Shown here one piece after another: positions 4,811-59,825 of a stretch of 64,000 nt of DNA. A program made the position numbers and the translations under genes. The notes under the pieces were generated by a model, which was not told the DNA's origin, made no database searches, and saw only the letters and a list, made by a program, of their open reading frames with translations. Source of the stretch: a virus. The first letter of the stretch is position 1; every line of letters starts with the position of its first letter. Location: the IMG/VR virus record IMGVR_UViG_3300043673_000021, positions 1 through 64,000 of that record; one strand, written 5' to 3'.

Positions 4811-4818
4811 GGTGTAGG

Positions 4819-5181
4819 TTATGCCTTAGGTGCGGCGACCACCGCTGCGTTCGCCGGGCTGACCGCAGCTTTAACCGCCGGGATGATCGTCTTGATATCC
4901 GCGATCAACGAGGCGTCGAGGGTGATACTGAGTCCTCCGGAGTTCGCGGCAGAACCCGCATCTTCGATGGCCTTGATGACGGCTCCCAGCACTGCTTCGC
5001 TGGCTCGTTCGATATTGGCCAACTGCGGGCTAACAAGGCCGCTAATGGCCTCAATGGTGGGCGCGCTGGCCTCCACTTTCTGGAGCGCCGGGAGGATCTT
5101 GCTTTCGAGAAACGATCCGGATTTTTTTAGGTCGCTGATGGCGGTCGCGTAAACGTGTTCGAGGGTGAGGAGTAGGCTCAT
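4819..5181 (-). CDS. Hypothetical Ala-rich phage protein
   Basis: 120 aa, not recognised. It is Ala/Ile rich and mostly helical (AISDLKKSGSFLESKILPALQK; ERASEAVLGAVIKAIEDAG), with no membrane segment strong enough to call. Its ATG overlaps the stop of the upstream 124-aa gene (ATGA). It lies between tail genes and the lysis cluster. Confidence 0.5.
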   Translation of the reverse strand: MSLLLTLEHVYATAISDLKKSGSFLESKILPALQKVEASAPTIEAISGLVSPQLANIERASEAVLGAVIKAIEDAGSAANSGGLSITLDASLIADIKTIIPAVKAAVSPANAAVVAAPKA

Positions 5182-5552
5182 TTGTTTTTTCCTTTGTTGT
5201 TAGAGGTTTTTGACGTCGTTTCCTTGGCCTGTAGTTGCTCGACAATCGGGTCTGCCCAAATGTGATCAACGGTAGTTAATTTAGGCCAAGAGTTGAGAAG
5301 TTCTTGCAGGGCGTTCGCGTCGGCGGATTCGAGTTCAACTGATCGCTCGCCGAAGTCGATAGTCGGGGCCATGTAGGTCCGCAATGTTTCGCTGACTTGC
5401 TGGACTTTAATCTGTGGGCTCTCCGCATCATCGAACCTCACGAGGTTTAGAACACGGAGAAAAGGTGCGGTGCGGCCGAGTGGACCCTCCTGCACAGATA
5501 GCAAATCGCTGAGTTTCAGGCGCTGGGTGAAGTTTAGTTCGATGGATATCAT
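5178..5552 (-). CDS. Hypothetical phage protein
   Basis: 124 aa, not recognised. It begins MISIELNFTQRLKL and contains a long mixed alpha/beta body with a hydrophilic, Lys/Asn-rich tail (TSKTSNNKGKNK). It is coupled to the next gene by ATGA. The gene order (tail fibre, 274-aa structural candidate, this gene, holin region) suggests a late protein. Confidence 0.5.
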   Translation of the reverse strand: MISIELNFTQRLKLSDLLSVQEGPLGRTAPFLRVLNLVRFDDAESPQIKVQQVSETLRTYMAPTIDFGERSVELESADANALQELLNSWPKLTTVDHIWADPIVEQLQAKETTSKTSNNKGKNK

Positions 5553-5558
5553 GGCGTT

Positions 5559-6383
5559 TTAGTGATCCCAATAAGTTCGGTAGTCGTTGCCGCTGGCGTC
5601 AACCTCTGGCAGCGTGGTGCATAAAATCTGCATCTCCACATTTGTGTTGATCGCCGCTCCACCCGTGACAGGGCCAGCATTCAGCAGTAACGCATTGGTA
5701 GGATTGCCAGTGCTAGATATAGAACTGCTGCTGTAAATTGGCACTGGTTTTAGGGATGGCGATGTAGGATTGTAAACAGAACTGCCGCTGTACCATGGCA
5801 GGTAATTTGGTGGTTCGTAGTCTATTGTTCCGGGAGATCCTAGCAGCCTGTACTGATCGAATACGTTGGGTATTCCGGTAGGGTTTCCCCTGATGAATCC
5901 AATGTTTGTCAGTGACACCGATCCGGTCACGGGCACGTGAGTGATCAGCAAGTACTTCGTGTAGACGCTGTATATAATCCGCACCGTGGCATTGATCGCG
6001 TGGTTATTGAACAGGATGGCGTTAAAATGCGTGCTGTCTGTTACCGTTGCCTTGACTACCTCTTGCAAGGCCGGATTCTCCGCATCGATAAGTAGGAAGG
6101 TCGCGCCAAATGTAATGAGGTTATTCAAAAACTGAGTAGTCGGAACAAGAACATCTTGCGGCGAGCTCCCGCCGGTCACTGTAGCCAAGATTGGCATCGC
6201 AATGCCCGCTCCTCCTGGGTCAAGCGTCAGGGCAGCAGGTTCAATCCTCTGCACCCTTACAGAGCCGAATGCGCAAGGTCCCATGTTAACGGTGTTTATA
6301 ATAAGCGGTGAAGATGTTTCTCCAGTAAACGATGAGCTTGCGAGACCCCCAACACAACTTCGTATTGATAAAGTTTCTGCCAT
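5559..6383 (-). CDS. Probable tail-fibre-associated structural protein
   Basis: 274 aa. It is rich in Ser, Thr, Gly, Asn and Pro with beta-like segments (ATVRIIYSVYTKYLLI; SLTNIGFIRGN) and an NP/SP-rich stretch (SSVYNPTSPSLKPVPIY), as in virion-surface proteins. It follows the giant fibre gene after 12 bases and has an AGGAAGG ribosome site. No family is recognised; a second fibre subunit or a decoration protein is inferred from composition and place. Confidence 0.5.
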   Translation of the reverse strand: MAETLSIRSCVGGLASSSFTGETSSPLIINTVNMGPCAFGSVRVQRIEPAALTLDPGGAGIAMPILATVTGGSSPQDVLVPTTQFLNNLITFGATFLLIDAENPALQEVVKATVTDSTHFNAILFNNHAINATVRIIYSVYTKYLLITHVPVTGSVSLTNIGFIRGNPTGIPNVFDQYRLLGSPGTIDYEPPNYLPWYSGSSVYNPTSPSLKPVPIYSSSSISSTGNPTNALLLNAGPVTGGAAINTNVEMQILCTTLPEVDASGNDYRTYWDH

Positions 6384-6395
6384 GTTTGTACCTTC

Positions 6396-9300
6396 CTAAG
6401 TTACTATTCCGCCAATCGCATTTAATGCTGTCGTGTTAGGCCCACCGAACGTAGTGGCTACAAAGAATGTCTGTGTTCTTCCAGGTGCTCCACCGTGGAT
6501 GTTATAGCCAGTTGCCTCAATGCCGGCAGTGAAAACCGCACCTGTTGATTGGATCTGCCCATTCACTTCAAGCGCTCGTGAAATAGGAACACCACCAATA
6601 CCAACAAGACCGCTTGCAGTTACGTATATTCTAGTAAGGTTGTTGGATCTAATTCCGAATGTATGCGCTGTGGCCGAGCCCATGAAGGCCATGTTATTGA
6701 AGTTATCGCATCCTGAATACGCGGTCATACTTCCAGCACTGTTTATTGCAACATAGTAAGCGTTGCCACCAGAGCCACTGGCAGAGTTACCGTGGATCTC
6801 AACCTTACTTCCAAGATCTAACAGTGGCGGAGCGGTGGGGTTAGCAATAAATACGCAGCCGCCAAACTCTCCACCACCATTAACCGCCACTGCATTGAAG
6901 GCGAAAGATGTAAGTTGTAGAGTATTGGCAAACACACCGCCGTTTGTGAAGATGGCGTTAAAGGCTGAAGATGAGGCATTGATCGACACAGCAGCGACGC
7001 CGCCAAACGGCAAACTAACTGCGTTGGATGCCAAGCTGTTAGATACAAATCCGTCGCCTGATTGTACAAACCCCTGTGCGCATGAGATGCTTGGCTGTCC
7101 AACGGAGCCGTTAACAGATATGAATCCCTGTTTCGTGAAGTAAATACCGCCAGGATTGTGAAAAGTATCGGCACTGAAGAACAGAGCACCTTCATTTGGG
7201 TTGCCAGATCCGATAGAAAATATTCTCGCAATGTGAGGATGGCCGGTCGATGACGTTGATGTGAAATCCAAGAACTGCGATCCACCGCCGACCACAGACG
7301 GTACAAGTCCTAATTTTATGCCGACTAGCGCAGAGAAGTCATCACAGTTTATTCCGTAGTCATAATAACCTGGATTACCTGATGTGGCGGCGATACGAAC
7401 ACCTGCGTTAGCATAACCCGGTGTTTCTGTGTACGGCGAGTTCGGCATGATCCATTTTGTCCCTGACCACCCTATGTTTCCAGGTTGCTGGAACGGCTGA
7501 CCAAATGCTGAATCTGTCAGCCATGCGATGTTGACATTGATACCCGCAAACGTTGTGAGGTGATGGGAGATATTAACGTCCATCTCAATACCGTTGCAAG
7601 TGCCAGCCACTCTGGTGGATGGGTTTTCGTTGATGTAATCACGAACAAGAAGGTTTGCGCCCCAGACTGCTGCGCCGGTAACCGCTGCAACAGCAAAGCC
7701 ACTTAGGGCCACTGAGCCAACGAAGCTACTACTTGCGGGTGCGTTATTAACCACCATCGCAACGAGCGCATCAGACTCCCAACTGGTAACACTAGATGGG
7801 GTTATCATGCCGAAGGTTCCGCCCGCTTCACGCACAGTAAAGGGGCCACCCGATGGATGGAAGAAATATTCCAGTGTCTGGGTGTTCGTGACCGTAGGCC
7901 CAACCAGTCCTACGACAGCAGACTGATCATGCACGCCGTCAAACGCACCGGCACAGAGCGACTGGAATGGCTGGAGCTTCGAAGAGCCACCGGTATAGGA
8001 GGATGAGCCAAGAGTCAGTTGCGGCGACACGCTTATGGGGCCAAGGTAATGCCCTGTGGAATCAATGATTACGCCGACTCCGTCAATCGAATAGGAGTGT
8101 CCGGTAAAGTTTCGCGAACTGTCGATGATGCCAGAACCGAGGATCGAATATGCCACGGAAGTCGTGGTCCCGTCGCCCGTTACGGCGAACAAGTCTGAGC
8201 CCGCGACGTTTAGCGTGAGTACGCGGGTTAGTGGGTTGGAATTTGCGACCTTTACCAGCAACCCATTCGCATTCGTGGCATTGTCAGTATTTTCCACGCC
8301 CCACATATAGCCAAGGGCGCTGTTCCGCCAGGTAATCCCCGAGCCGTGCGTTGTGCCAACCGGGGTCCCTTGGGCATCCAGGATGTTGGCTGCGCTATTG
8401 GTGAGCAGGTCCCATGACGTGCTGGGATTTCCCACGGTAACCGACCGACCGAATAGATTGGCCGAACTGTCGATCACGAGGGAGGGAGTGGCCCCGGAGA
8501 TAACAAGTGATGTTCCCGTAAATCCCCGGGCATTGCTGATAACCCCGTTGCTCCCGACCGAATAGGCTTGGGCGGTCGCAATCCCATCTGCGGTTACCGC
8601 GAATAGATCCGATCCGCCGGCATTTAGCGTCAGGAGCCTTGTCAGTGGATTTGTATTCGCTACTTTAACGATCAGGCCATTGGAGTTGGTGACGTTATTG
8701 GTGTTCTCGACTCCCCACATGTAGCCCGTCGCCGAGTTGCGCCACGTGACACCAAAGCCATGGGTAGTTCCGATCGGAGATCCTTGCGAGTCGATAACAT
8801 TTACCGCGCTGTTGCTGAGGAGATCCCACGGCGTGGATGTGGCAATACCGACCGCCCTAAAGATACCGTTACCCGCGTTGTCGATGATGAGATTCTGTGG
8901 AGCCCCTCCAGTGACCGCACCGTAGAGGGTGACCGAATTCCCGGTGAAGTTGCGGACGTTGTCGATCGCGCCGTTGCCAGAGATGGTGAGGGACGGAATC
9001 AGGGTTGTTCTATCGGTAAATTGCGCGACTAACGTACCCTGCTGCAACCCGCGATCGGTCCATGTGATACCGCCGTCCGTCGTTGTTCCTCCCGTGTGGT
9101 TGAACGTCGGCAGTGAGCCGCCCGAATTACCCGACGCCTCGGTGACGGTCTGAATGTGGCTCGCGCCGTCGAGAATCGACTGCCCAACCTGCCAAGCGAA
9201 GCTTCCCACCCAAGAGCCAAGTGGGACGTTTTTATATAAATTGGCGCTAGCGTCAGTGCCGCCCACTAGCGTGTGCTCAGTCTGGAGGACATGCTCGCAT

Positions 9301-25376: not shown

Positions 25377-27242
25377 CTAGTTTCCGACGAAAGGACCGAT
25401 ACCAGTAATGACAGCCGAGAGCCACGGGAAATAATGAGCCAGGGTCTCTTGAACGTAGGTTCCCCAAGGGAACGCTCTCTGCGTCATCGGCCATTCGATG
25501 CCGTAGTACTCGCGCTGGATGTCGAGTCCACGACTGAAAGGCGCGCGGGAGGTCGGATAGGGAATTTCCTCGAAATCGGCGTAGATAGTGCCGAGCGGCA
25601 TCATGGGATGAATGCTGATCGGTATCACGGTTCCTCCAGTCGGATTGGCGACAGCGTAGCGGCTCTGATAGTTGGCGACAATAAAGCCGCCGAGCATGTT
25701 TCCCTGTTGGTCGCGATTGACCATAAACTGGAACCCACTGAATGCCCCGCCAGTGCCAGCGCCGCTCCATCGGATCGCCTGATCAAGAGCGTTTGCGGCG
25801 TCTGCTGAGCACCACAGTCTTGTAGGCGACGTCTGGAAGTTCTGGAAGAAATAGAGAAGCATGTTCTCGATTTCGAGAACGCGCCCGTTTTTCTCAGACG
25901 TCAGGGAACCACCGTAGAGGTCAACGTAATAGCCGCTCTTGGCAGCGTAAGTCAGAAGTCCGTCGAAATCCGTGGTGTTGTACGAATTGTCGGTACTCAG
26001 ACCGGCGGAGTTTCCGGCATAGGCCCCTGTTGAGGTTCCGCTAACGTAGCAAAACGGAACGGTCGTAATGCCGGCCAGTGTCGCGGCTGCAAGGCTTCCA
26101 GTATTGCTGGATTCGACATCGACAAACCACGCGTAGCCGTAGCAGTTCTTGATCGGAAGGCTTCCAGCGGGAACTTGAAACTTGATCGTCAGATTTCCGG
26201 AAGTCGCCTGTACGGGCGTGCTGATCGGGCTGATTTTTCCTACGCCGCCATTGACGGTAATGGTCTGCGCGGTGCCAGGCGCATTATATGTGTACGATGG
26301 CACCAATCCGCCGCCGATGGTCGGGGGGATTCCGGTATAGCCGTATTGCGGGTTCGCGGGATTTCCCATCGCAGTCAGGGGGACCACTGCAACCGAAACA
26401 AAGTTGCTCGTCGTCAACGCGGTCGTGTACGGAAGGTCGGCGAAACCGACCGTAGAGAGGTTTCCCGCCACTCCGACAGTGTGCGTCGCAGCGACCGCGC
26501 CCGTGGGTGTCGGGGTGGCGGTTGCTCCGCCAGATCCATTGAACTGAGTACCGAGTTTGCCGGTTCCAATGCCGCCGTTTCCGGTCAGGATCATCGCCTC
26601 TTCGCCGAGAAACACAACATTCAGGCCACGGATATGCTCGTCGCCTAAGTTGTCAGTGAATCCTTCACCAGCCCACTGCGCCGTAAAACTTACGAGGCGC
26701 TCATGGCCGAGTTCGGCATACTTCGCAAAGTAGTCGTTCTCGTCCGGAGTACCGATTTGCGCGCGCTGCCCCTCAATCGCTCCGACATAGGAATAGCCGG
26801 GATTCTTGGTCGTTTTCCACTGTGCCATGACGCCAACGCCAAGATTCACCTTGCCGTTGCGTGACATGCTATTGCGAAGCGGAGTGTTCACCGGATAGGC
26901 GAGCACCGCGGGTCCGCGCAGATCAATGTAGTTGTAGCCCAGCGAACTGGTTACGCCGGCCTTTGCAACAGGGATTTTGGTGTCCTGTTTGAATGGCTCC
27001 GCTGCCAGTTCTCCGGCCATCTTCTTTGCCATCTGGTTTCGCCAGCCGACGCGGTCGAAGAACTTGCTGATTGCGGCTTCGCTCGGGTCAATTGGCGGGC
27101 GGAAATATCCCTTGTTGGCTTCAAGGGCCGTGGCCTCGTTGTTTTCGAGGGATTTCTTGAATGAATTTTTTGTCCAATCCGCCGTCTGTGTCCGGAGGGC
27201 CAGATAGGACGGGTTGGGGAGAAATTTACTTGGGCTGATCAT
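25377..27242 (-). CDS. Major capsid protein
   Basis: 621 aa, long for an HK97-fold shell protein. The N-terminal part (FFDRVGWRNQMAKKMAGEL, LGYNYIDLRGPAVLAYP) and C-terminal part (WCSADAANALDQAI, FEEIPYPTSRAPFSRGLDIQ, YGIEWPMTQRAFPWGTYVQE) frame a Gly/Thr/Pro-rich insert (residues about 230-400) resembling Ig-like decoration domains. The residues after the insert include a LEIENMLLYFFQNFQ helix. Gene order (protease, scaffold candidate, this gene, connector) supports the call. An AAAAGGAG site lies upstream. An open frame continues in phase beyond its amber stop (25137-25376). Confidence 0.85.
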   Translation of the reverse strand: MISPSKFLPNPSYLALRTQTADWTKNSFKKSLENNEATALEANKGYFRPPIDPSEAAISKFFDRVGWRNQMAKKMAGELAAEPFKQDTKIPVAKAGVTSSLGYNYIDLRGPAVLAYPVNTPLRNSMSRNGKVNLGVGVMAQWKTTKNPGYSYVGAIEGQRAQIGTPDENDYFAKYAELGHERLVSFTAQWAGEGFTDNLGDEHIRGLNVVFLGEEAMILTGNGGIGTGKLGTQFNGSGGATATPTPTGAVAATHTVGVAGNLSTVGFADLPYTTALTTSNFVSVAVVPLTAMGNPANPQYGYTGIPPTIGGGLVPSYTYNAPGTAQTITVNGGVGKISPISTPVQATSGNLTIKFQVPAGSLPIKNCYGYAWFVDVESSNTGSLAAATLAGITTVPFCYVSGTSTGAYAGNSAGLSTDNSYNTTDFDGLLTYAAKSGYYVDLYGGSLTSEKNGRVLEIENMLLYFFQNFQTSPTRLWCSADAANALDQAIRWSGAGTGGAFSGFQFMVNRDQQGNMLGGFIVANYQSRYAVANPTGGTVIPISIHPMMPLGTIYADFEEIPYPTSRAPFSRGLDIQREYYGIEWPMTQRAFPWGTYVQETLAHYFPWLSAVITGIGPFVGN

Positions 27243-27351: not shown

Positions 27352-28095
27352 TTAGAGTCCGAGGTCGTCGCTTGAGCTTGCAGCGACGGGCGTGTTGCCG
27401 TTGCGGTCAATCAGATGGACCGGGACAGCCGTGACTGCTGTCGTTTTAAGCCCGACGCCAAGCAGAGCCTGGAATTCCTCTGCCACAAGCGCATCGTACT
27501 GCTTCTTTGCCGAAGTCTTGGCCGCGGCCTTTAGTGCCTCCGGAATATTACCTTCGGGCGGTTCGGTAGCAGTCGGCGGTGCCACAGTCTTCGTGGCTGG
27601 CTCAGTCGGGGCTGGATCGGACTTCGGAGCCGGGTCGGCTGCCTGCGCCGCCTTGGCCGGATCTGCGGCGGGAGCCGGATCTATTGGCGTGGCCAGGGGA
27701 ACCGCCGTGGTCTTTACTGGATCAGTGGCAACCGGTGTCGGTACAGTAGCAGCCTTCTCCTCTTCGACCGCTGTCGCGTGGTGCTCGGCCATCTTCGTGC
27801 AGTGCTCGCACATCGCGGCATGAGCCTTCGCGGCCTTCTCGTGTTCGGCAGCATGTCCCTTATGGGTCTTAGCCCCCGCCTTAAAGAATGAATGCGCCGC
27901 CTTGTGGACACTATGCGGGTCCTCAGTCACACCCTTGTGCGCCTCCGCCATCTGCTCGTGCTCATCCGCTTGGTCTGCGTGATGCTCGGCCTTCGCGGTG
28001 TGATGCGCGGCCATCTTCTCGTGATGGTCGGCTTGTTTCTTGAAATGGCTCGCCTGTGTGGCTCGGCCAGCCTTAATGACGTCAAATGCTTTCAT
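27352..28095 (-). CDS. His-rich helical protein, scaffold candidate
   Basis: 247 aa. Residues about 15-115 are a repeating His-rich helix (HHEKMAAHHTAKAEHHADQA, HEQMAEAHKG, HKGHAAEHEKAAKAHAAM). Residues 115-185 are a Pro/Ala/Thr linker, and the C-terminus is a small helical segment (KKQYDALVAEEFQALLGVGL). Lying between the prohead protease and the capsid gene, it occupies the usual place of a scaffold. The spaced His could bind metal or respond to pH. The fold is a coiled-coil type by pattern; the function is inferred. Confidence 0.6.
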   Translation of the reverse strand: MKAFDVIKAGRATQASHFKKQADHHEKMAAHHTAKAEHHADQADEHEQMAEAHKGVTEDPHSVHKAAHSFFKAGAKTHKGHAAEHEKAAKAHAAMCEHCTKMAEHHATAVEEEKAATVPTPVATDPVKTTAVPLATPIDPAPAADPAKAAQAADPAPKSDPAPTEPATKTVAPPTATEPPEGNIPEALKAAAKTSAKKQYDALVAEEFQALLGVGLKTTAVTAVPVHLIDRNGNTPVAASSSDDLGL

Positions 28096-28126: not shown

Positions 28127-29845
28127 TTATGCGGCGACGAATTCATGTAACTCGGAAGTCTCTTCCTCTGCCATGGCGAGAAAGGTCTCGATCAGGTCTG
28201 CGAGGTTCTGGCGGAGATCTTCGGGCAGGGATGACTCATCGCCCTCGAATTCCGTCTCGTAGCGCGCGTTCCAAAGCAGGCTCGCAACATCTCCGATGAT
28301 GTTCGCAAACCATCCCACTTCGAACATCCCCTTGCGGGCACGCACAGCGGCGGCCTTGGCCGGAGCCATCTTAGCCTGTATCATTTTCGAAATGAGGGCG
28401 AGAGGAACGGACGATCGGGTTGCGGATTTAGCGGGGCTGTTGATTTCGATACCGTGGGCCTTGCAGAGGCGCAGGAGTTTCTTCCGCGCGGTCGTCTTTT
28501 GGTCTTGGCTTATTCCATCGACGCGGTCAAGCCCCAAGAGCGCAACCTGAAGATGGCGCGTGGTTTTTGCCTCGGAAGCGAATTTACACGGCAGCGCCCA
28601 TGTTGTGGGCTGGTCTTTGTCGCCGACCAGTAGAAAACAATTTGCAGTCAATTCTTCGCCGGCTTTGCGTACAGTTTTGGCAGCGGTCTTTGTGGCTTCC
28701 TGATTTTTCATAGTTTGCGCCGCCTTAGACGCTGGTTCTCGCAGTTGGACATGCGTTGCTTCTCCTTCTTTTGATCGGATGGAAATCACCTTTACGGTGT
28801 AGGTCTTGCCGACCATTAATTCGCTCCCGACGTATTTGGTAGCCGAGCCTGCGGCGACATAGGCGAGAGTGCAATGTGGCGTGTAGTTGAAATCTGAATC
28901 CTTCCACTCGCCGTGGTCTTTAATCTCACTATTGATCCGAACAAGTTCATCCGAGTGGGCTCGGACAATCAGGGGCGAGGCTCCGTCACTATGCACGGTG
29001 GGTTCGAACGACTCTACCTTGCCGAATGTGATTGTGAACTGGGCTTGGCCAGCCAAGTACTCCGCAATCGCCTTTGTGTCGTCGACCGTTATTCCATACC
29101 GAACCGTGACATGCGAGTGTTCCCCCCGACCGCCGGCAGCATGATTAAGGTCGGCATAATCCACTGAGTCACGCAGCAACTTGATAGCGGTGCCGATCTC
29201 CCCTTCGGGCTCAATTTCAATCTGCGCTGTTCCGTACGAGTGCTTCTCGGCGGATGGTTCTAGGGAAGTATTTTTGAACTTCCGCATCTCCAAGGAACCA
29301 TTGGCTTTGACATACAGGAAATGCGCAGCCGGGAGGCAGGGCATATCCACGTAGCTGTTCTCGACCAGATTGATTGCGTAGAACGGGGCTACCGTCTTTT
29401 GGCAAGCGGGGCAAATATTCCCTTTGGACTTGGGGATGTCAGCGTCGCATTGTGGGCACCAACGCTTGGCGTAAGACCCTGCCTGTGATGTCCCGGTTAC
29501 AAACCCGTCCCGGATGAGGTCCCACTTTTCGGGAATCGGCTGCGTCCGTATTCGAATCTCTTTTTTATCGTCATTGAACTCCAGTCCGACGACCTTACCG
29601 GCAATCTCAAGACTGTGCTGCCAACGCATATTACCGAGACTCTCGGACTGGCCGGCGGCGCGCGTCGATTCCAGTGCTTCATTCGACCAAGCGACATAGA
29701 GCGGTTTCTGTGTTTCGTAGTGACAGACCTCGCCGTCGCGATCTTCGCGCTGGCATGTAGCGATGGAAAGGGTTTCGTGCTTCCCTTCGTCGAGGCTGGC
29801 GAAGGTCGCACTCTTATGAATAAGCTCAGACATGTGCAGCACCAT
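28127..29845 (-). CDS. Prohead protease fused to a 2H phosphoesterase domain
   Basis: 572 aa. Residues about 10-190 look like a XkdF/S78-type prohead protease: N-x-R-x-QHS with H77, AGKVVGLEFNDDKKEIRI, WDLIRDGFVTGTSQAGSY with S120, and LVENSYVDMPCLPAAHFLYVK; a zinc knuckle (C130, C133, C145, C148) is inserted after S120. Residues about 205-370 carry two HxT motifs, HVTV (H245) and HCTL (H324), diagnostic of 2H phosphoesterases (2',5' RNA ligase/CPDase/Acb1 superfamily). The C-terminus has a DUF6582-like WALPCKF and RLCKAHGIEI region. The protease would mature the head. The start at 29845 is backed by GGAAGGG; an ATG at 29833 is possible. It overlaps the portal gene end. Confidence 0.75.
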   Translation of the reverse strand: MVLHMSELIHKSATFASLDEGKHETLSIATCQREDRDGEVCHYETQKPLYVAWSNEALESTRAAGQSESLGNMRWQHSLEIAGKVVGLEFNDDKKEIRIRTQPIPEKWDLIRDGFVTGTSQAGSYAKRWCPQCDADIPKSKGNICPACQKTVAPFYAINLVENSYVDMPCLPAAHFLYVKANGSLEMRKFKNTSLEPSAEKHSYGTAQIEIEPEGEIGTAIKLLRDSVDYADLNHAAGGRGEHSHVTVRYGITVDDTKAIAEYLAGQAQFTITFGKVESFEPTVHSDGASPLIVRAHSDELVRINSEIKDHGEWKDSDFNYTPHCTLAYVAAGSATKYVGSELMVGKTYTVKVISIRSKEGEATHVQLREPASKAAQTMKNQEATKTAAKTVRKAGEELTANCFLLVGDKDQPTTWALPCKFASEAKTTRHLQVALLGLDRVDGISQDQKTTARKKLLRLCKAHGIEINSPAKSATRSSVPLALISKMIQAKMAPAKAAAVRARKGMFEVGWFANIIGDVASLLWNARYETEFEGDESSLPEDLRQNLADLIETFLAMAEEETSELHEFVAA

Positions 29846-32207
29846 TAACCCTTCCGCTCAACGGCGTCACGCTGCCATGCATCAGAACCTTGAACGCAAG
29901 CGAGTCAGCCAACTTTGCGAGGAAGATGGCGATCTTCTGCTTTATTGAATGCTCTTCCGGAGACGCTGCCGATAACGGATTTACGGTAGCCGACTTTCTG
30001 GCCTTGGACGTTACCAATACGGGCGACAGGAGGCACATTTCTCCGATGTGGGACGGGTAGTCAGGAAGATCTTCGAAACTGTACGGAGAATCCCGCGCGA
30101 TTTGTGGGCAGTCGCATGGAACTTCCTCGGGACGCTCTGGGTTTAATTCCCACTTGACCGCGCTCACCAAGCCGCTTTCTTGCCATGCCTTAATCGCGGA
30201 ATTTGAGCGCACGGTCAGGGTTTCATGCTGCGCGATGCGCTCCGCGCGCGCCATCGAAAACCATGGTGATTGGCGGATTTCATCCGCTAATTCATTGGAG
30301 TCAATCCCCCGATCTTCAGCATCTGCGAGAATGCGCCCGATCGCTGTCGCAGTAGATTCACTGATGGCCTGCTTTGGAGTGGTCAACGGAAAGTAATCAT
30401 CGCCAACCCTGCGTAAGCCAACTAACTCGCCGGCCCGCTGGGCCGCCCACGTCCTGGCAACCTCAAGCGCCGCTTCTACGGTGCGATCATCGGTCATGCC
30501 AAGTCCCGTCATGGCTTGGCGTACGGCGTCAACCGCGACTGATTCGAACTCAGGCTGTAGCGTCGAAGCAATTTCAGTCCAGTCGATGAGCAGAAGCACC
30601 TTGAGAAGGTCATCCTTCTTATGTCTCTTGGTTGTGACCACGATGCGATCCCGGCTCTCATCGAGCATCTGGTGGCACGCCGCTCGCACAATTCGCACAA
30701 CGTTTCGCGTGATGTCTTCGGGGCCGTCACCGGTCTTGTCGACTCGGTAGGACTTGTCGGTTGGGATGTTGGTCCGAGCATTGGCCCCGATCTCGTTAAA
30801 TGAAGGCCCATGAAGCGTGATCGGCATAAAGCCATTCGCCGCAAACTGTCCGGGGATTTTCATCTCCGGTAGGTCGATCGGGTCCCATCCGTGATCGTCG
30901 CGGATTTCTTCACGCGGGCGAATGCCGGCGTTCACGTACGCGACGTCAATTCCCTGCTGCTTTACCGGATCTGTTTCCCGGAGTGAGTTAAAGCGAAACT
31001 CGTAGTCCGTGTAGCCCATATTGACCTGCAGAATCCAGTTTGCATAGCCTTCAAGCCACTGCTGGTGAGGAAGAAGGCCTTCCTCTTCAGCGGATTCCTG
31101 CCCAGTTTCCGCACTCGCGCGGTTCATCTGCTTCTGCAGGCGGTGGGCGGAGGCACCATAGGCGAATGCAATCTTGCGGATGTGCATGTCGTCGAATGGG
31201 TCGGACAAAAGCGGCTCTTTGGGGAAGAGAACCTGATCGGGTTTGCCGTCCTTATTGAAGCCCTGCATCATGCGCCACTGTCGACGGGCCTCGAGGTTTC
31301 CGGCAAGTTCTGACGTCATCCAGTCCATCGCCTCCCGGATCTTGTCGGACGGGGTATCAAAAGGAACGATCTGAAGAACACCAGGGATGCTTCCTTTGTC
31401 GTAGTAGGCCTTCACGAACAATTGACGCGCGATGCCGATCTCGATTTCAATCGCCGTGCCCTCAGTAGGCGAACACCCATAGAGGTAACTGGCAATCGAG
31501 TCGGGCCTGATTACGATATTTCGAGGTCTGTAGACGAGCTCATCCGTGGTCATATTCACACGGGGCATGCCGTTCCACAGTTGGCAGTAAGCCGGCGACG
31601 GCGGGGCCGGTGTCCACCCGTTGTCGTCGATATAGCGAGTGATATCGTCGCCGGGGAGATAACGTAGTTCCTGAACCGCTCCACCTTTTCGCCTACGCCT
31701 CAGAAGCGTTGCCGGAGCGTCGATGCAGAGCATGTCGTCAAGCAGGCGAGCCGACCAATCGGACCAAAACTCCTCCCCGTTGGGTTTTTCGAAGAACCGC
31801 GAGAGTTTGGTAATATTCTCGTCGTCCTTCTCCCGCTTTCGAAGCGCAGCATTCAACTCTCCCGGAACTGGCTTGAGGTGAATCGCCCAATTCATCGTTT
31901 GACTGATCTGCCCTTTAATGCTGTCGATGCAGGAACGGGACAGCGTGTAAGAGGAGAGCTTTCTAAGTGCCGCCGCGGTGTAGAACGCATCCGCACGGGG
32001 GGTGATGGTCTGGTTCCACCCGTGAAAGTATGGAACGCCGAGAGGAGAGGAATTTTCATTCCCCATCGGCCGCATCGGCTGCGCGGCTGATGGAAAATTG
32101 CGGCTCGGGTCGACGCCTGCGATCGTGTCCGGTGGACGATCATACAGGCGTGCTCCCGCCTGAGTGAGCATCGCCGCAATACCGCTTAAACTTCTGACGC
32201 CTGCCAT
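29826..32207 (-). CDS. Portal protein with C-terminal MuF-type minor head domain
   Basis: 793 aa. The first about 500 residues match the portal: LSRSCIDSIKGQISQTMNWA, MLCIDAPATLLRRRRKGG, LRYLPGDDITRYIDDNGWTP, GCSPTEGTAIEIEIGIARQ and DDMHIRKIAFAYGASAHRLQ. The C-terminal about 200 residues match the MuF/gp7 minor head family: RAERIAQHETLTVRSNSAIK, then VKWELNP, CDCP and a final H...C segment. In many phages these are separate genes; here they are one chain, so each portal subunit would carry a minor head domain. The start at 32207 lies two bases after the upstream stop; the longer frame to 32285 would overlap that gene. Confidence 0.85.
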   Translation of the reverse strand: MAGVRSLSGIAAMLTQAGARLYDRPPDTIAGVDPSRNFPSAAQPMRPMGNENSSPLGVPYFHGWNQTITPRADAFYTAAALRKLSSYTLSRSCIDSIKGQISQTMNWAIHLKPVPGELNAALRKREKDDENITKLSRFFEKPNGEEFWSDWSARLLDDMLCIDAPATLLRRRRKGGAVQELRYLPGDDITRYIDDNGWTPAPPSPAYCQLWNGMPRVNMTTDELVYRPRNIVIRPDSIASYLYGCSPTEGTAIEIEIGIARQLFVKAYYDKGSIPGVLQIVPFDTPSDKIREAMDWMTSELAGNLEARRQWRMMQGFNKDGKPDQVLFPKEPLLSDPFDDMHIRKIAFAYGASAHRLQKQMNRASAETGQESAEEEGLLPHQQWLEGYANWILQVNMGYTDYEFRFNSLRETDPVKQQGIDVAYVNAGIRPREEIRDDHGWDPIDLPEMKIPGQFAANGFMPITLHGPSFNEIGANARTNIPTDKSYRVDKTGDGPEDITRNVVRIVRAACHQMLDESRDRIVVTTKRHKKDDLLKVLLLIDWTEIASTLQPEFESVAVDAVRQAMTGLGMTDDRTVEAALEVARTWAAQRAGELVGLRRVGDDYFPLTTPKQAISESTATAIGRILADAEDRGIDSNELADEIRQSPWFSMARAERIAQHETLTVRSNSAIKAWQESGLVSAVKWELNPERPEEVPCDCPQIARDSPYSFEDLPDYPSHIGEMCLLSPVLVTSKARKSATVNPLSAASPEEHSIKQKIAIFLAKLADSLAFKVLMHGSVTPLSGRVNGAAHV

Positions 32208-32209
32208 TT

Positions 32210-32626
32210 TCAGTTGAACTTGACGATGAGGTATCCGGTCACGCCCGAAGCACTTGCTGACCAGGTAATTCCATTTGGCATCCACCGACAGGTGGAGTCA
32301 CTTGCGGCATTGAATATCTGTGTCGCAGAAGCTGCGCTTGTCCCGATTGCGGCGACACTCAACCATGTAACTGGCGTCGCCTGTCGATCTTGGATAGTGA
32401 CCGTCTGCCCGGTTCCCGAGAGGTCCAAGTAGCAAACGTACAGATCCCCTTTTACGGTGGTTCCGTTGGGATATAGGACACTGACACCTGTCGGACTCGT
32501 CGGGACGGCTATCGGAAGAGTTTGGTAAACGTACGTGAAGTTTGTCGGCCTTCGGAACGTTGCCGTCTGCGAGAAAGACGTCAATGAGGCGAAGAGGCAC
32601 AGGGCTAGAAGGATTACTCTTGACAC
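32210..32626 (-). CDS. Secreted small protein next to the portal gene
   Basis: 138 aa. A signal peptide (MSRVILLALCLFASLTSFSQ) is followed by a beta-rich mature part with two Cys (LYVCYLDLSGTGQTVTI; STCRWMPNG). The start is GTG with a near-perfect GAGGAGG site. A secreted protein within the head gene cluster is odd. It resembles the secreted 153-aa protein at the other end of the late operon in size and layout, so the two may share ancestry. Function unknown. Confidence 0.65.
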   Translation of the reverse strand: MSRVILLALCLFASLTSFSQTATFRRPTNFTYVYQTLPIAVPTSPTGVSVLYPNGTTVKGDLYVCYLDLSGTGQTVTIQDRQATPVTWLSVAAIGTSAASATQIFNAASDSTCRWMPNGITWSASASGVTGYLIVKFN

Positions 32627-32837: not shown

Positions 32838-33089
32838 CTACTTGGCAGGCCACTTTGGGGCCGAAATAACCTCAACGAACCATTGAAACCGGCAGGTATC
32901 ACAGGAGAGCTTGATCATCGCTGCGGATTTCCCTTCGATCTGCGTACGTTCAAATTCTGCCGCGCGCGCAACGATCGGACGGTGCCCACATACCGGGCAT
33001 CGCGACCGCAAGTTGACCTCGAGAACCGGGGCTGGCAGGAAGAGCCGCGCGATGCTTCGCCCTGCAATGAAAATCCACCGCCAAATCAT
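32838..33089 (-). CDS. Zinc-ribbon protein after the large terminase
   Basis: 83 aa. A hydrophobic/basic N-terminus (MIWRWIFIAGRSIARLFLPA) is followed by CPVCGHRP and CDTCRFQW, two CxxC pairs of a zinc ribbon. The ATG overlaps the terminase stop (ATGA). Small zinc ribbons near the terminase are common in phages; the role is not known. Confidence 0.6.
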   Translation of the reverse strand: MIWRWIFIAGRSIARLFLPAPVLEVNLRSRCPVCGHRPIVARAAEFERTQIEGKSAAMIKLSCDTCRFQWFVEVISAPKWPAK

Positions 33090-34570
33090 TCTTTTGCGAA
33101 GTGCTCAACGCGGTTCTTGCCCTTGTATAAGGTGTCTGCTGCGCCAAACTGCGCGCCGCACGATCCGCAACGCTTGCCGACATGCGCGCCCATGTTCTGG
33201 ATGCATGTGCCGCCACACTGCGGGCAGCGCTCGGTCTGATCACCAATTGCTGGTTTCGCGACTGCTGGGGTAACGATACCTTGCTTATTCAATGTGACAT
33301 CCCCTGAATCCATCCGCGCTTGAGTTTGTTTCAGCCATTCGATTAAACCGAGACTCCCACCTCGATTCTTGGCGAGGTAGTACCATGCGATCGCGAGCGG
33401 GATGACTGTGTCATCGTGGCCGCTGCCGGCGGCGGCATATCGAACCAATCCACCGGGAAGCTGATGAGACTCGAATGACTGGAGCTCGCCAATCAGTACC
33501 GGATTGTCTGGAATCTTGATCTGACGGCGCTCGAAGGCTAGTGCCAGAGACTCGACGGCTGCCTGCTTCGAGGCGTTACTGGTCACAAAGGCATCCACCG
33601 CGACGCCATCTGATCGAAGTTGATCAATGAGCGGCTGGCCCATGTTGTTCGACTCGGCGAGAGTTTTGATTGGGTTGTGTCGGCCAATAAAGGTCTTGAG
33701 TTTCCCCATCTGGTGGGGGTAGGTCAAACCGCGGAACCTCTCCATCTCGACAAGTTCCCCGCCGGTATCGACGGCAGAAAAAACGGTAAAGTCTCCCCTT
33801 CCAGAGGTGCCGGCCCAATCGACCGCTATAACCTTGTCACCAGTGCTCTGAACGATGTTATTGTTGACCGCGTCGCCCACATTGACGAAAACTGCGCCTT
33901 CATAGCTGAGGAAGTCCCCGCCGTATTCTTGGTTGAACGCGAGTTCAGAAAGCCCATCGCGAATCTCTTCGATTTCTTCGGCGGCTAGATAGGGATTCGT
34001 CCAGGAAGGCATCTTCCACGACTTCCAGTTTCCTTTTTCGGGGTCCTGCCCCCACTGGTAGAGCGTATAGAAGTCGTTACCGATACCGCGCGGAGTTGAA
34101 AAAAACCAAACGTCGCCCCGATAGAACGCGATCAGCGCGCGAAGGGAACGCTCCCACGTTTCCTTGAGATTCTTAATGAGGGCGGCCTCGTCCACAACCA
34201 GCCGCTTATATTTGCGACCACGGGGCCCGTCTGGATCTTCGAGCGACCAGAATTCAATCTTTCCGCCACCAGGGAAGCATAACTGCTTCTGTTGCTCATC
34301 CTTCGATCCACCCTTCCGATTCCAAAGCGGCTCAGTGGTGGACTTGACTTCCTCGAAACTCTCATCGAGGCTCTTGTAGCTAGGCGACATCCACGCAGTT
34401 GGATACCCAGCCAGCGCTGGGCGTATGACCAACTCTTTTCCCATGGTCGTCTTGCCCCACTGACGGCCACAATCGACAACCGAGAAGCGAACCGCCTCGG
34501 ATAGAACCTGGATCTGAGCGGCATGCAACCGCGGCAGGTCAATCCGAACGGTAGCCTTGCCGTCAACCAT
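33086..34570 (-). CDS. terL: Terminase large subunit
   Basis: 494 aa. The packaging motor has an N-terminal ATPase with Walker A CGRQWGKT (34-41), Walker B RLVVDEAA (D127, E128) and coupling motif FFSTPRG (157-162). The C-terminal RNase H-like nuclease has acidic residues D251 (VIAVDWAGT), E306 (LAESNN) and D386/D387 (GHDDT). The last 50 residues add an unusual zinc ribbon (C449, C452, C456, C468, C471). It overlaps the small subunit by eight bases and the next gene by ATGA. The motor translocates DNA through the portal and cuts it. Confidence 0.95.
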   Translation of the reverse strand: MVDGKATVRIDLPRLHAAQIQVLSEAVRFSVVDCGRQWGKTTMGKELVIRPALAGYPTAWMSPSYKSLDESFEEVKSTTEPLWNRKGGSKDEQQKQLCFPGGGKIEFWSLEDPDGPRGRKYKRLVVDEAALIKNLKETWERSLRALIAFYRGDVWFFSTPRGIGNDFYTLYQWGQDPEKGNWKSWKMPSWTNPYLAAEEIEEIRDGLSELAFNQEYGGDFLSYEGAVFVNVGDAVNNNIVQSTGDKVIAVDWAGTSGRGDFTVFSAVDTGGELVEMERFRGLTYPHQMGKLKTFIGRHNPIKTLAESNNMGQPLIDQLRSDGVAVDAFVTSNASKQAAVESLALAFERRQIKIPDNPVLIGELQSFESHQLPGGLVRYAAAGSGHDDTVIPLAIAWYYLAKNRGGSLGLIEWLKQTQARMDSGDVTLNKQGIVTPAVAKPAIGDQTERCPQCGGTCIQNMGAHVGKRCGSCGAQFGAADTLYKGKNRVEHFAKE

Positions 34571-39734: not shown

Positions 39735-40478
39735 ATGAGACGACTACCGATCAAGACACAGACATCAGGCGCTCTGCACGTTGGCTATGCACGCGTCTCC
39801 ACTCACCAGCAGGCCAGCGAGGGTCTATCCTTGGATGCCCAGCGCTCACGGCTTGAGTCCGCAGCTACCCTGCGAGGTGTAACGCTTGAAATCTTTTCAG
39901 ATGAGGAATCGGGCAAGGACACGAACAGACCTCATTTCCTCTCTCTCCTCACCAAGGTGAAAGCTGGACAGATAGCCTCCGTGACGGTCTGTAAGCTCGA
40001 CAGGTTGACGCGTAGCGTACGTGATCTTCTGGACCTCATGACGCTATTCGAAGCGCACGGTGTGGCATTTATCAGCCTTGCGGAAACCATTGACACCACT
40101 ACCGCTATGGGCCGATTCTTTACCGTCGTACTGGGTGCGATTGCTGAGCTTGAGCGCGGCCTGATCAGTGATCGGACTACCGCAGTGTTGCGCCACAAGC
40201 GGGCATCAGGACTGGCTTGGAATCATGCACCGTACGGCTTCGACAAGTCTGACGGCCGTCTGATGCTGAACGAGTCCGAACTCGCCGTGGCTCACCGCAT
40301 CCTGCAGGCTCGAGTTGATGGTCAATCGTTCGGCGCGATCGCTAAGCAGTTGAATGCAGAGAGTGTGCCGGCGAAAATGGGCGGCCCCTGGTACCCGTCG
40401 ACCGTGTCCTTTGTGTGCGGCAATCGTGATCTGTATGTTAGTGTGTCAAATTTACCACAGCCTAGTGTGGCTGTTTGA
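39735..40478 (+). CDS. Serine recombinase
   Basis: 247 aa. The resolvase-type catalytic domain (residues 15-150) has the nucleophile S22 in VGYARVSTHQQ, then LDAQRSRLESAA, VCKLDRLTRSVRDLLDLM and ALGRF-like MGRFFTVVLGAIAELERGLI. A short recombinase domain follows (APYGFD, NESELAVAHRIL, GQSFGAIAKQLNAE, GPWYPSTV). It lacks the long zinc/coiled-coil C-terminus of large serine integrases (usually above 400 aa), so it may be a resolvase or invertase or a small integrase. Operator-like sites stand on both sides (39515, 40442). Confidence 0.85.
   Translation: MRRLPIKTQTSGALHVGYARVSTHQQASEGLSLDAQRSRLESAATLRGVTLEIFSDEESGKDTNRPHFLSLLTKVKAGQIASVTVCKLDRLTRSVRDLLDLMTLFEAHGVAFISLAETIDTTTAMGRFFTVVLGAIAELERGLISDRTTAVLRHKRASGLAWNHAPYGFDKSDGRLMLNESELAVAHRILQARVDGQSFGAIAKQLNAESVPAKMGGPWYPSTVSFVCGNRDLYVSVSNLPQPSVAV
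40442..40459. promoter_or_regulatory. Operator-like site 6
   Basis: TGTGTCAAATTTACCACA, lying inside the last codons of the recombinase gene. A half site TGTGGC follows at 40466. The reverse strand contains TTGACA. Confidence 0.55.
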
Positions 40479-45107: not shown

Positions 45108-45293
45108 TCATCCCTTCCGCTCCATCCGCTTGCCGCTGGGCATGGCAGCCTCGCCATCGCTTCGGAGGGCACCCGGACGATGTGCGAGAAGAATTCGCCA
45201 ATCTGACGGCACCTGGGCCGCGCGGAAGCCCGCGAAGGGGGGCGCTGCAAGTTGGGCGAGTTCGCCGGCGGTTAGGTCGCTGAAGCGGATCAC
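45108..45293 (-). CDS. Hypothetical small protein
   Basis: 61 aa starting with GTG in a GTGA overlap with the nucleotidyltransferase stop. Begins MIRFSDLTAGELAQLAAPP and is basic at the end (PSGKRMERKG). Not recognised. Confidence 0.4.
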   Translation of the reverse strand: MIRFSDLTAGELAQLAAPPFAGFRAAQVPSDWRILLAHRPGALRSDGEAAMPSGKRMERKG

Positions 45294-46267
45294 GCGGTGA
45301 CCTTCCCTGATAACCCGCTGCGGATAATGCTCACCAGCACGCGCTCTGCTCCTTCTCGGTTCGGGCCGTCCGGCAACGTCGACGCATCACGCGCCGCGCG
45401 CGCCTGAGCCCAAAGGTCATCCGCCAGAAGCTTCACGTCCTCCAGTTTCCACTTGCCGGTTTTGATCTCCAGTAGTTCAGCGGCATCCTGCCGGTAAACG
45501 TGCATTTCTCCGGTCTTCATGAACTCTACGCACATCCGGAGTAAACGAATCAAATGGGCAGCGTTCTTCGTGTCATACGAGTGGCGGAGTACAAGTTGTT
45601 TGCGCTTCTCGCCCATGTAGCCGATGTTCTCGCCCTTCTTTTGGAAGTTGCGGAGCCGGGCGAGTAGTTTATCCGGTGCCCAATTGACAGCATCACGAAG
45701 TTCGCCGGTATCGCGATCGGGCGCCGGGAAAACCTCGCCTTTATGGTTCGGGTGGATGCCGCGAAACTTCATTTCGGCAGTGACAGCCAAATACTCGCGC
45801 AACTCCTCCGGGTCGCGGCTCTCCATCTTTTCCATTTGCTGGTGTGCGTAACCGGCGAAGGCGTTATAGACGTGCTTGCCGACGAAAAACTGGCGATTAG
45901 CAAAAAGAAGATCCGCGATCGGCTCGACAATCAGGCGGTGCCGGGGCTCAAGCCAGAGCATCGACATGATATTGGGGTTGCCTTGCAGGAGAAGCGAAAC
46001 CGCTTTCCGCGCTTCGTACAACACCACGTCGTACTGGCCAGCCTTGAACTCTTTCGTGCCGCGGCTGCCCCATTCGCCGAGCCCGAAGTAGTCCGTCTCG
46101 GAGCCCACGCAGAAACCCATCAGGTCGATATCGTCAATGCTATCGATGTTTTCCGGCGGAACATACATGCCGTGGGCAATTGACCCGCGATATCCAAGGT
46201 AAAAGCACTCTGGCGGCACCGTGAAAGTCACGCCCGTCTTGTCGGTCATTATCAGCTTTTCCGTCAT
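45290..46267 (-). CDS. RlaP-type nucleotidyltransferase
   Basis: 325 aa. This belongs to the polymerase-beta-type nucleotidyltransferases annotated as RNA repair RlaP: the GS motif at residues 28-29 (YRGSIAHGMY), the metal-binding DDID (46-48), then QYDVVLYEARKAVSLLLQGN and PNIMSMLWLEP. Further family features are AYNAFAGYAHQQ-like FAGYAHQQMEKMES and the C-terminal KNAAHLIRLLRMCVEFMKTG. It would transfer a nucleotide to a nucleic acid or other acceptor. The start is fixed by an ATGA overlap. In a phage it may repair tRNA cut by host defences, or modify a host target; the substrate is unknown. Confidence 0.8.
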   Translation of the reverse strand: MTEKLIMTDKTGVTFTVPPECFYLGYRGSIAHGMYVPPENIDSIDDIDLMGFCVGSETDYFGLGEWGSRGTKEFKAGQYDVVLYEARKAVSLLLQGNPNIMSMLWLEPRHRLIVEPIADLLFANRQFFVGKHVYNAFAGYAHQQMEKMESRDPEELREYLAVTAEMKFRGIHPNHKGEVFPAPDRDTGELRDAVNWAPDKLLARLRNFQKKGENIGYMGEKRKQLVLRHSYDTKNAAHLIRLLRMCVEFMKTGEMHVYRQDAAELLEIKTGKWKLEDVKLLADDLWAQARAARDASTLPDGPNREGAERVLVSIIRSGLSGKVTA

Positions 46268-46494
46268 ATCCTCACCTTGCTGCCTGCCTGTTCCCGCAAC
46301 TTGGTCGCTTCCCGCCACTCGTCCAGCGTATCCAGCATTGGGTTGAGGTAGGTGCCGAAGAAATAGCCCCAATACGCCACATGCCCGGCTTCGACCTTCA
46401 TCACATGGCGCGTCCACTTTTTCGGCTTGATGTGCGGTGCCATGTCAACGCAGTCGCCGGGTTGCGGGTCGATTCTTGGGTCGCGGTCGGTCAC
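46264..46494 (-). CDS. Hypothetical protein
   Basis: 76 aa from a GTG in a GTGA overlap. It has an Asp/Pro-rich start (TDRDPRIDPQPGDCVDM) like phage proteins that begin with a short DxRxxPxxGD turn, then a W/Y-rich body (HVAYWGYFFGTYLNPML). Function unknown. Confidence 0.5.
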   Translation of the reverse strand: MTDRDPRIDPQPGDCVDMAPHIKPKKWTRHVMKVEAGHVAYWGYFFGTYLNPMLDTLDEWREATKLREQAGSKVRI

Positions 46495-59586: not shown

Positions 59587-59825
59587 CAGCGGGTCGCCTC
59601 CCCAAACAAACTCGCCTGCCCAACCGGCGCTACCTCGCCGCCCAACTCGCGCCGCCATTCGTCCAGTGACACCGTCGTGTGGCCGAAGTCCGTACCGTTG
59701 ATCGAGGTGCGATAGCGGACGGACTGCGCATCGACGGCAACCACGGTTCGCTGGTAGACTCCGGGCTTCGGGCGCAGTTCGAGGATGTCGCCGGGGGATG
59801 GATTGCTGGCTATGGAACGGGTCAT
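59586..59825 (-). CDS. Hypothetical protein
   Basis: 79 aa, start by ATGA with the methyltransferase gene. Beta-like (PGDILELRPKPGVYQRTVVA, VRYRTSINGTDFGHTTVSLD) and ends EVAPVGQASLFGEATR. Not recognised. The GHTTVSLDEW element resembles small phage proteins near methylases. Confidence 0.5.
   Translation of the reverse strand: MTRSIASNPSPGDILELRPKPGVYQRTVVAVDAQSVRYRTSINGTDFGHTTVSLDEWRRELGGEVAPVGQASLFGEATR

Follow-up and report, generated by a model that had tools for sequence, protein, structure and literature searches.

Can an enzyme of the 2H phosphoesterase superfamily be built into a phage head maturation protease, and if so, what would it do there? The question is raised by a gene in the window, by which we mean the whole 64,000 nt analyzed here (positions 1 to 64,000 of the IMG/VR virus record IMGVR_UViG_3300043673_000021). 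A sequence-only reading had described its product as a capsid maturation protease with an inserted zinc knuckle, followed in the same chain by a 2H domain that could be released by self-cleavage and act on RNA or on cyclic-nucleotide immune signals. The fusion ORF is placed between the genes for portal-MuF and the major capsid protein (Table 1).

Table 1. Coordinates in the window of the fusion gene, its parts, and neighboring head genes
Feature	Position	Strand	Size or basis
Fusion gene: head maturation protease, 2H phosphodiesterase, conserved C-terminal (scaffold-side) region	28127..29845	-	572 aa
XkdF-like head maturation protease domain, residues 1-190	29276..29845	-	61-sequence alignment; PHROG 9427 / PF14550 in homologues; AF2; Strzyga synteny
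Zinc knuckle CPQC-x11-CPAC, residues 130-148, within the protease domain	29402..29458	-	four Cys invariant in nine-sequence clade
2H phosphodiesterase domain, residues 195-375, between protease and C-terminal region	28721..29263	-	PF13563; AF2; Foldseek PDB; 70-sequence alignment
First 2H catalytic motif HVTV, residues 245-248	29102..29113	-	
Second 2H catalytic motif HCTL, residues 324-327	28865..28876	-	
Conserved small domain, residues ~385-472; directly after the protease in relatives	28430..28693	-	phmmer matches: L110, L113-L118, L046, others
Conserved helical C-terminus of the protease-scaffold protein, residues ~487-572	28130..28387	-	BLASTP 35% to Strzyga C-terminus; phrog_21715 6e-4
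Separate His-rich scaffold-like gene	27352..28095	-	phmmer matches inside relatives' protease ORFs
Portal-MuF fusion without 2H domain; 20-base overlap with the protease gene	29826..32285	-	819 aa
Major capsid protein	25377..27242	-	position; homology to Strzyga gene at the same place
Terminase large subunit	33086..34570	-	

The residues H77 and S120, assigned to the protease, are at their places; in an alignment of 61 protease sequences, both are invariant, like several D/E positions. PHROG 9427 ("head maturation protease") was matched by 50 of the 61 homologous domains and PF14550 (XkdF) by 45; the window domain itself gave no direct match to either. Over the first 190 residues, the window protein shares 34% identity with a protein of Brevundimonas phage vB_BpoS-Strzyga, in which terminase, portal-MuF, protease gene, and capsid follow each other as in the window. 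AF2 modeled the protease domain with a pLDDT of 90. A Foldseek search of this model against the PDB yielded no significant match, the HCMV protease appearing only at an E value of 0.3 to 0.8 and a TM score below 0.3. Since the window domain has neither a library match nor a significant PDB neighbor, its assignment as a protease rests on homologues and synteny. More than 100 further protease relatives were gathered from IMG/VR and bacterial genomes, and Streptomyces phage genes annotated "capsid maturation protease" matched the protease domain of the relative L260. We conclude that the N-terminal part, as judged from its relatives, is a head maturation protease. In the Strzyga genome (ON529867; L002), the protease gene at 5917-7536 was missed in the deposited annotation, where STRZYGA_00010 is called over it on the opposite strand.

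The zinc knuckle was likewise found in place (CPQC130 and CPAC145), and it is inserted in comparison with Strzyga and L046, both of which lack it. The four Cys residues are shared with the eight other members of their clade, all of them proteases without 2H. Given this distribution, the knuckle predates the 2H insertion and is separate from it.

Both HxT motifs (HVTV245 and HCTL324) lie in one uninterrupted ORF, as claimed. Two HhTh motifs spaced 50 to 110 residues apart occurred in 0.66% of shuffles of the window protein. Much stronger evidence against a chance pair of motifs comes from Pfam PF13563 (2_5_RNA_ligase2), which matched residues 243-339 (6e-10; 39.8 bits versus a cut-off of 27). 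Loss of HxT among homologues, which the sequence-only reading had named as a possible outcome, was not observed: all 70 aligned homologues have both motifs, with one T-to-S replacement. The search patterns for homologues demanded one of the two motifs, and thus the other provides an unbiased test of conservation. H245, G251, P323, H324, T326, A328, and Y329 are invariant, and T247 and F280 are present in 69 of the 70 sequences. The structure prediction that had been suggested as a check (pLDDT 94.1; pTM 0.87), for which three phage-collection rows were left out of the alignment, gave a bilobed 2H fold matching 2H enzymes. In the PDB, Foldseek matched the model to Usb1, Arabidopsis CPDase, LigT, Acb1 (7t26), AKAP18, and the penguinpox cGAMP PDE, all with a probability of 1.00. 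Human Usb1 was the best match, and the TM scores were about 0.5 to 0.6 for Usb1, the plant CPDase, LigT, Acb1, and the penguinpox enzyme. From the fold matches and the alignment on the Acb1 motifs (see below), the two His residues probably face one active site. Conservation and model together indicate that the inserted domain is an intact 2H enzyme.

In relatives, the protease is followed by a short linker, the conserved small domain, a helical C-terminus, and often a His-rich scaffold tail. The window has a counterpart of each of these parts, with 180 residues of 2H placed in the linker. Since the relatives' protease joins the C-terminal part through a short linker without 2H, the 2H domain represents a clean insertion. 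The His-rich tail, which ends the protease chain in many relatives, is a downstream gene of its own in the window. An assembly chimera was ruled out by protease-type matches at both ends of the chain, the continuous frame, and the similarity of the three parts in base composition. Queries with single sequences revealed no relatives in IMG/VR or genome contigs, and alignment-based searches were needed. In addition, phmmer with the whole fusion protein against the PDB gave no match, and neither did PADLOC.

Other genes of the window encode a protein of 850 aa, which has an N6/N4 DNA methylase domain (59822-62374, minus strand), and a serine recombinase (39735-40478, plus strand). Outside the window, the record contains at 71192-74046 (L194 9192-12046) a C-terminal piece of a C-5 cytosine methylase (PF00145, 1.8e-6), overlapped by an HNH-endonuclease ORF. 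This arrangement is possibly a homing insertion.

Where the same 2H occurs in other phages was surveyed in 80 IMG/VR loci, to which later loci were added. The domain was found inside portal-2H-MuF chains (L008, L290, L291, and L292), at the portal C-terminus (L010, L046, L049, L065, L083, L122, and L136), and before MuF (L019, L023, L025, L066, L111, L282, and L284). Other members are parts of large multidomain "polyvalent" proteins with ART, GNAT, RelA/SpoT, or topoisomerase IB; for example, 2H is fused to topoisomerase IB in L035 (2701-4500) and follows a RelA/SpoT-like domain in L011 (1122-3134). In huge phages (records of up to 595 kb), a stand-alone 2H gene lies between terminase and portal (L003 6001-6573, L057 7830-8423, and L067 3278-3847). 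The portal/MuF-2H proteins of L282 (3-2870) and L290 (2-4156) have intein-splicing-like regions (PF14890, below cut-off).

Portal, protease, and capsid genes occurred together in 157 loci; of these, 10 have the 2H domain in a portal/MuF ORF (one phage being counted twice, as L046 and L190), none has it in the protease, and 147 lack it. An origin as an ancestral part of the protease was ruled out: this 2H is carried by 0 of 203 distinct protease ORFs, drawn from a set given as 306 loci, and the domain of L260 is of the Acb1 type and on the other side of the protease. A maximum-likelihood tree places the window 2H together with six copies from portal/MuF genes of this head lineage (support 85/97). 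With this moderate clade support, the tree is consistent with a move of the 2H from portal/MuF to the next gene; the domain could also have an outside origin. From its distribution, we conclude that the 2H is a mobile cargo of head genes, usually located in portal or MuF, and that the protease location is the unusual part. Of the sequence-only interpretation, the head maturation protease and the intact 2H enzyme, related to Acb1 by profile, are supported; the portal/MuF cargo context is what it had been missing.

The protease family was joined to a 2H-class enzyme in a second lineage. In L260 (Rhodocyclaceae MAG, 4816-7971) and L327 (IMG/VR, 4821-7922), a single ORF encodes NUDIX, Acb1, protease, and scaffold in this order. 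The L260 domains were identified by Pfam (Acb1, 6.5e-35; NUDIX, 2.5e-18; XkdF, 3.5e-5), and those of L327 were assigned by phmmer against the L260 domains. L327 retains both HxT motifs (HVTIAY and YKPHITLTY); in L260, the second His is replaced by Asn. NUDIX-protease chains without Acb1 are present in L312 and L313. Furthermore, an Acb1-like domain forms the portal C-terminus in the cultured phages phiPSA1, RHph_TM3_3_3, Synechococcus phages, and HMSP1-Susan. In L307-L311 (Pseudomonas, Synechococcus, Rhizobium, and Sinorhizobium phages), this portal C-terminal domain has intact HxT motifs, the second being HVS in L311. Two genes of about 140 aa on Rhizobium rhizogenes plasmids (L328 4001-4438 and L329 4028-4444), named "phage prohead protease/protein", match the Acb1-like domain and not the protease; their names were probably carried over from fusion proteins.

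Acb1 (T4 57B, FBB1) is a 2H anti-CBASS enzyme proven by experiment (PMC9117128), and LigT-like PDEs are a general viral class of anti-immune proteins (PMC11410667). The link to Acb1 suggested by the sequence-only reading held at the level of profiles. The best PDB sequence match of the 70-sequence 2H profile was Acb1 (9q2g; E value, 3e-7), and T4 Acb1 was matched at 1e-6 with both HxT motifs in register. At the level of families it did not hold: the window 2H scored 19.6 bits against PF23474 (Acb1), below the cut-off of 27, and is thus not filed as Acb1, 2_5_RNA_ligase2 being the better match. The homologue in L011 clears this cut-off with 31.2 bits. Acb1 has aromatic base-stacking residues and a C-terminal lid with E141 and W147 (PMC9117128). 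The lid could not be aligned to the window 2H; F280 is near the place of Acb1 W74, and F319 is near that of F107.

We propose that the 2H in the protease linker is a head-gene cargo enzyme which is delivered with the DNA and acts early on phosphodiester nucleotides, and we give this reading an even chance. The occurrence of 2H on neighboring head proteins of related phages makes it probable that the window 2H is taken up by the head as it forms, and from there it may be delivered together with the DNA; that the same domain is normally portal/MuF cargo makes delivery in the virion plausible. The protease part would bring the 2H into the procapsid core, and maturation processing would leave some of it inside the head. 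It would then enter the cell together with the DNA and act early on 2'-5' or 3'-5' cyclic or 2',3'-cyclic phosphodiester nucleotides, with defense signals of the CBASS kind as the most likely targets. Carriage by the protease rather than by the portal ring would raise the copy number. In favor of this reading, we count, besides the domain and insertion evidence given above, the grouping with portal/MuF copies, Acb1 as the nearest PDB match of the profile, the second lineage, in which the same protease family is fused to a true Acb1 (L327 and L260), the Acb1-like domains on the portals of cultured phages, and the members in polyvalent proteins, a class for which packaging and injection have been proposed (PMC5512222). 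Against it, we count the missed Pfam cut-off for Acb1, the unaligned lid, the moderate clade support, the frequent loss of maturation proteases from the heads of other phages, and the RlaP nucleotidyltransferase of the record, which would fit an RNA substrate.

This RlaP (PF10127, 8e-17; 45290-46417, minus strand) makes RNA repair a serious rival, although we regard it as unlikely. The 2H would open the 2',3'-cyclic phosphate ends left on tRNA by host ribotoxins, together with the phage RlaP and a host ligase. RlaP has been described to act with RNA ligases, and 2H to clean cyclic ends (PMC7824862); in addition, 2',3'-cyclic phosphodiesterases and LigT are among the fold matches. However, searches of the 97.6-kb record, which is possibly incomplete, for an RNA ligase (PF09414), RtcB, and an AAA_33 kinase were negative, and no tRNA was found in the 64-kb window. 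RlaP is 15 kb away from the fusion gene, such 2H domains never associate with RNA ligases according to Iyer et al. (PMC5512222), and repair would leave the carriage of 2H by a head protein unexplained.

Delivery could also serve a different activity, with the 2H cutting host RNA like Usb1-type enzymes, comparable to the MuF-fused RNase domains of other phages. Usb1 as the top structural match points in this direction, and Iyer et al. favor an RNase, since the 2H-MuF/portal fusions parallel PBECR RNase fusions (PMC5512222). We nevertheless consider this quite unlikely: three-dimensional similarity among 2H enzymes does not predict the substrate, and in sequence profile, Acb1 and YjcG come closer to the 2H than Usb1 does. 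In other phages, head maturation proteases are often broken down on maturation and do not remain in the head, so the 2H may never get out of the cell that produces it. In that case, the fusion to the protease would be accidental and bring no delivery, and the enzyme would act in the producer cell only, for example by late degradation of defense signals. A single protease with this 2H was observed, and the stand-alone Acb1 of T4 works inside the infected cell, both of which agree with such a role. To this explanation, too, we assign a low probability, since portal, MuF, and protease have repeatedly been fused to the same or related domains, a pattern that is hard to account for unless location in the head brings a benefit.

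Should the enzyme arrive in the next host along with the DNA, as in our preferred reading of a delivered cargo, the counter-defense would work from time zero, which is important given the early triggering of nucleotide-signal defenses. Compared with the portal ring, a protease carrier would supply a built-in release step and more copies. A wider generalization, which we hold to be doubtful, is that head maturation proteases are a general, previously unrecognized carrier of anti-defense enzymes. Their cargo would enter the procapsid at the copy number of the protease, be released by the carrier protease, be retained in the head, and be injected, disarming nucleotide-signal immunity before phage gene expression. 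The window 2H and the NUDIX-Acb1 of L260 and L327 would then be two independent inventions. Protease genes, whose annotation tends to end at "protease", could be screened systematically for fusions of this kind.

Carriage of 2H by portal or MuF was already published in 2017, so carriage by the protease is the new variant. Iyer et al. reported fusions of 2H to MuF or portal, put forward the packaging and injection of polyvalent proteins, and suggested for 2H an RNase activity or the degradation of nucleotide signals (PMC5512222). In their text, "prohead protease" appears once, in a reference title (PMC5512222). No publication joining "capsid maturation protease" and "2H phosphoesterase" was found, which, at partial coverage of the literature, is weak evidence of novelty. 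Microbacterium phages are known to have fusions of structural genes, MuF-protease among them (PMC7302621). As in polyvalent proteins, a single chain of the window protein combines an effector enzyme and a protein of virion assembly or structure.

In comparison with known systems, the window protein shares with the 2H-MuF and 2H-portal fusions the 2H on a head protein, for which injection and an attack on RNA or nucleotide signals were proposed there too (PMC5512222); it differs in its carrier, which is a head maturation protease instead of portal or MuF. With the XkdF/S78-like head maturation protease of Strzyga, it has homologous protease and C-terminal regions and the gene order in common, whereas zinc knuckle and 2H are present in the window protein only. 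The NUDIX-Acb1-protease chains (L327 and L260) likewise combine a 2H-class enzyme and the same protease family in one chain between portal and capsid genes. In contrast to the window protein, with its 2H after the protease, they have a NUDIX domain and Acb1 proper before it. Finally, T4 Acb1 resembles the window 2H in fold, in both HxT motifs, and in sequence profile, but it stands alone, while the window 2H is fused to a protease, stays under the Pfam Acb1 cut-off, and has no alignable lid.
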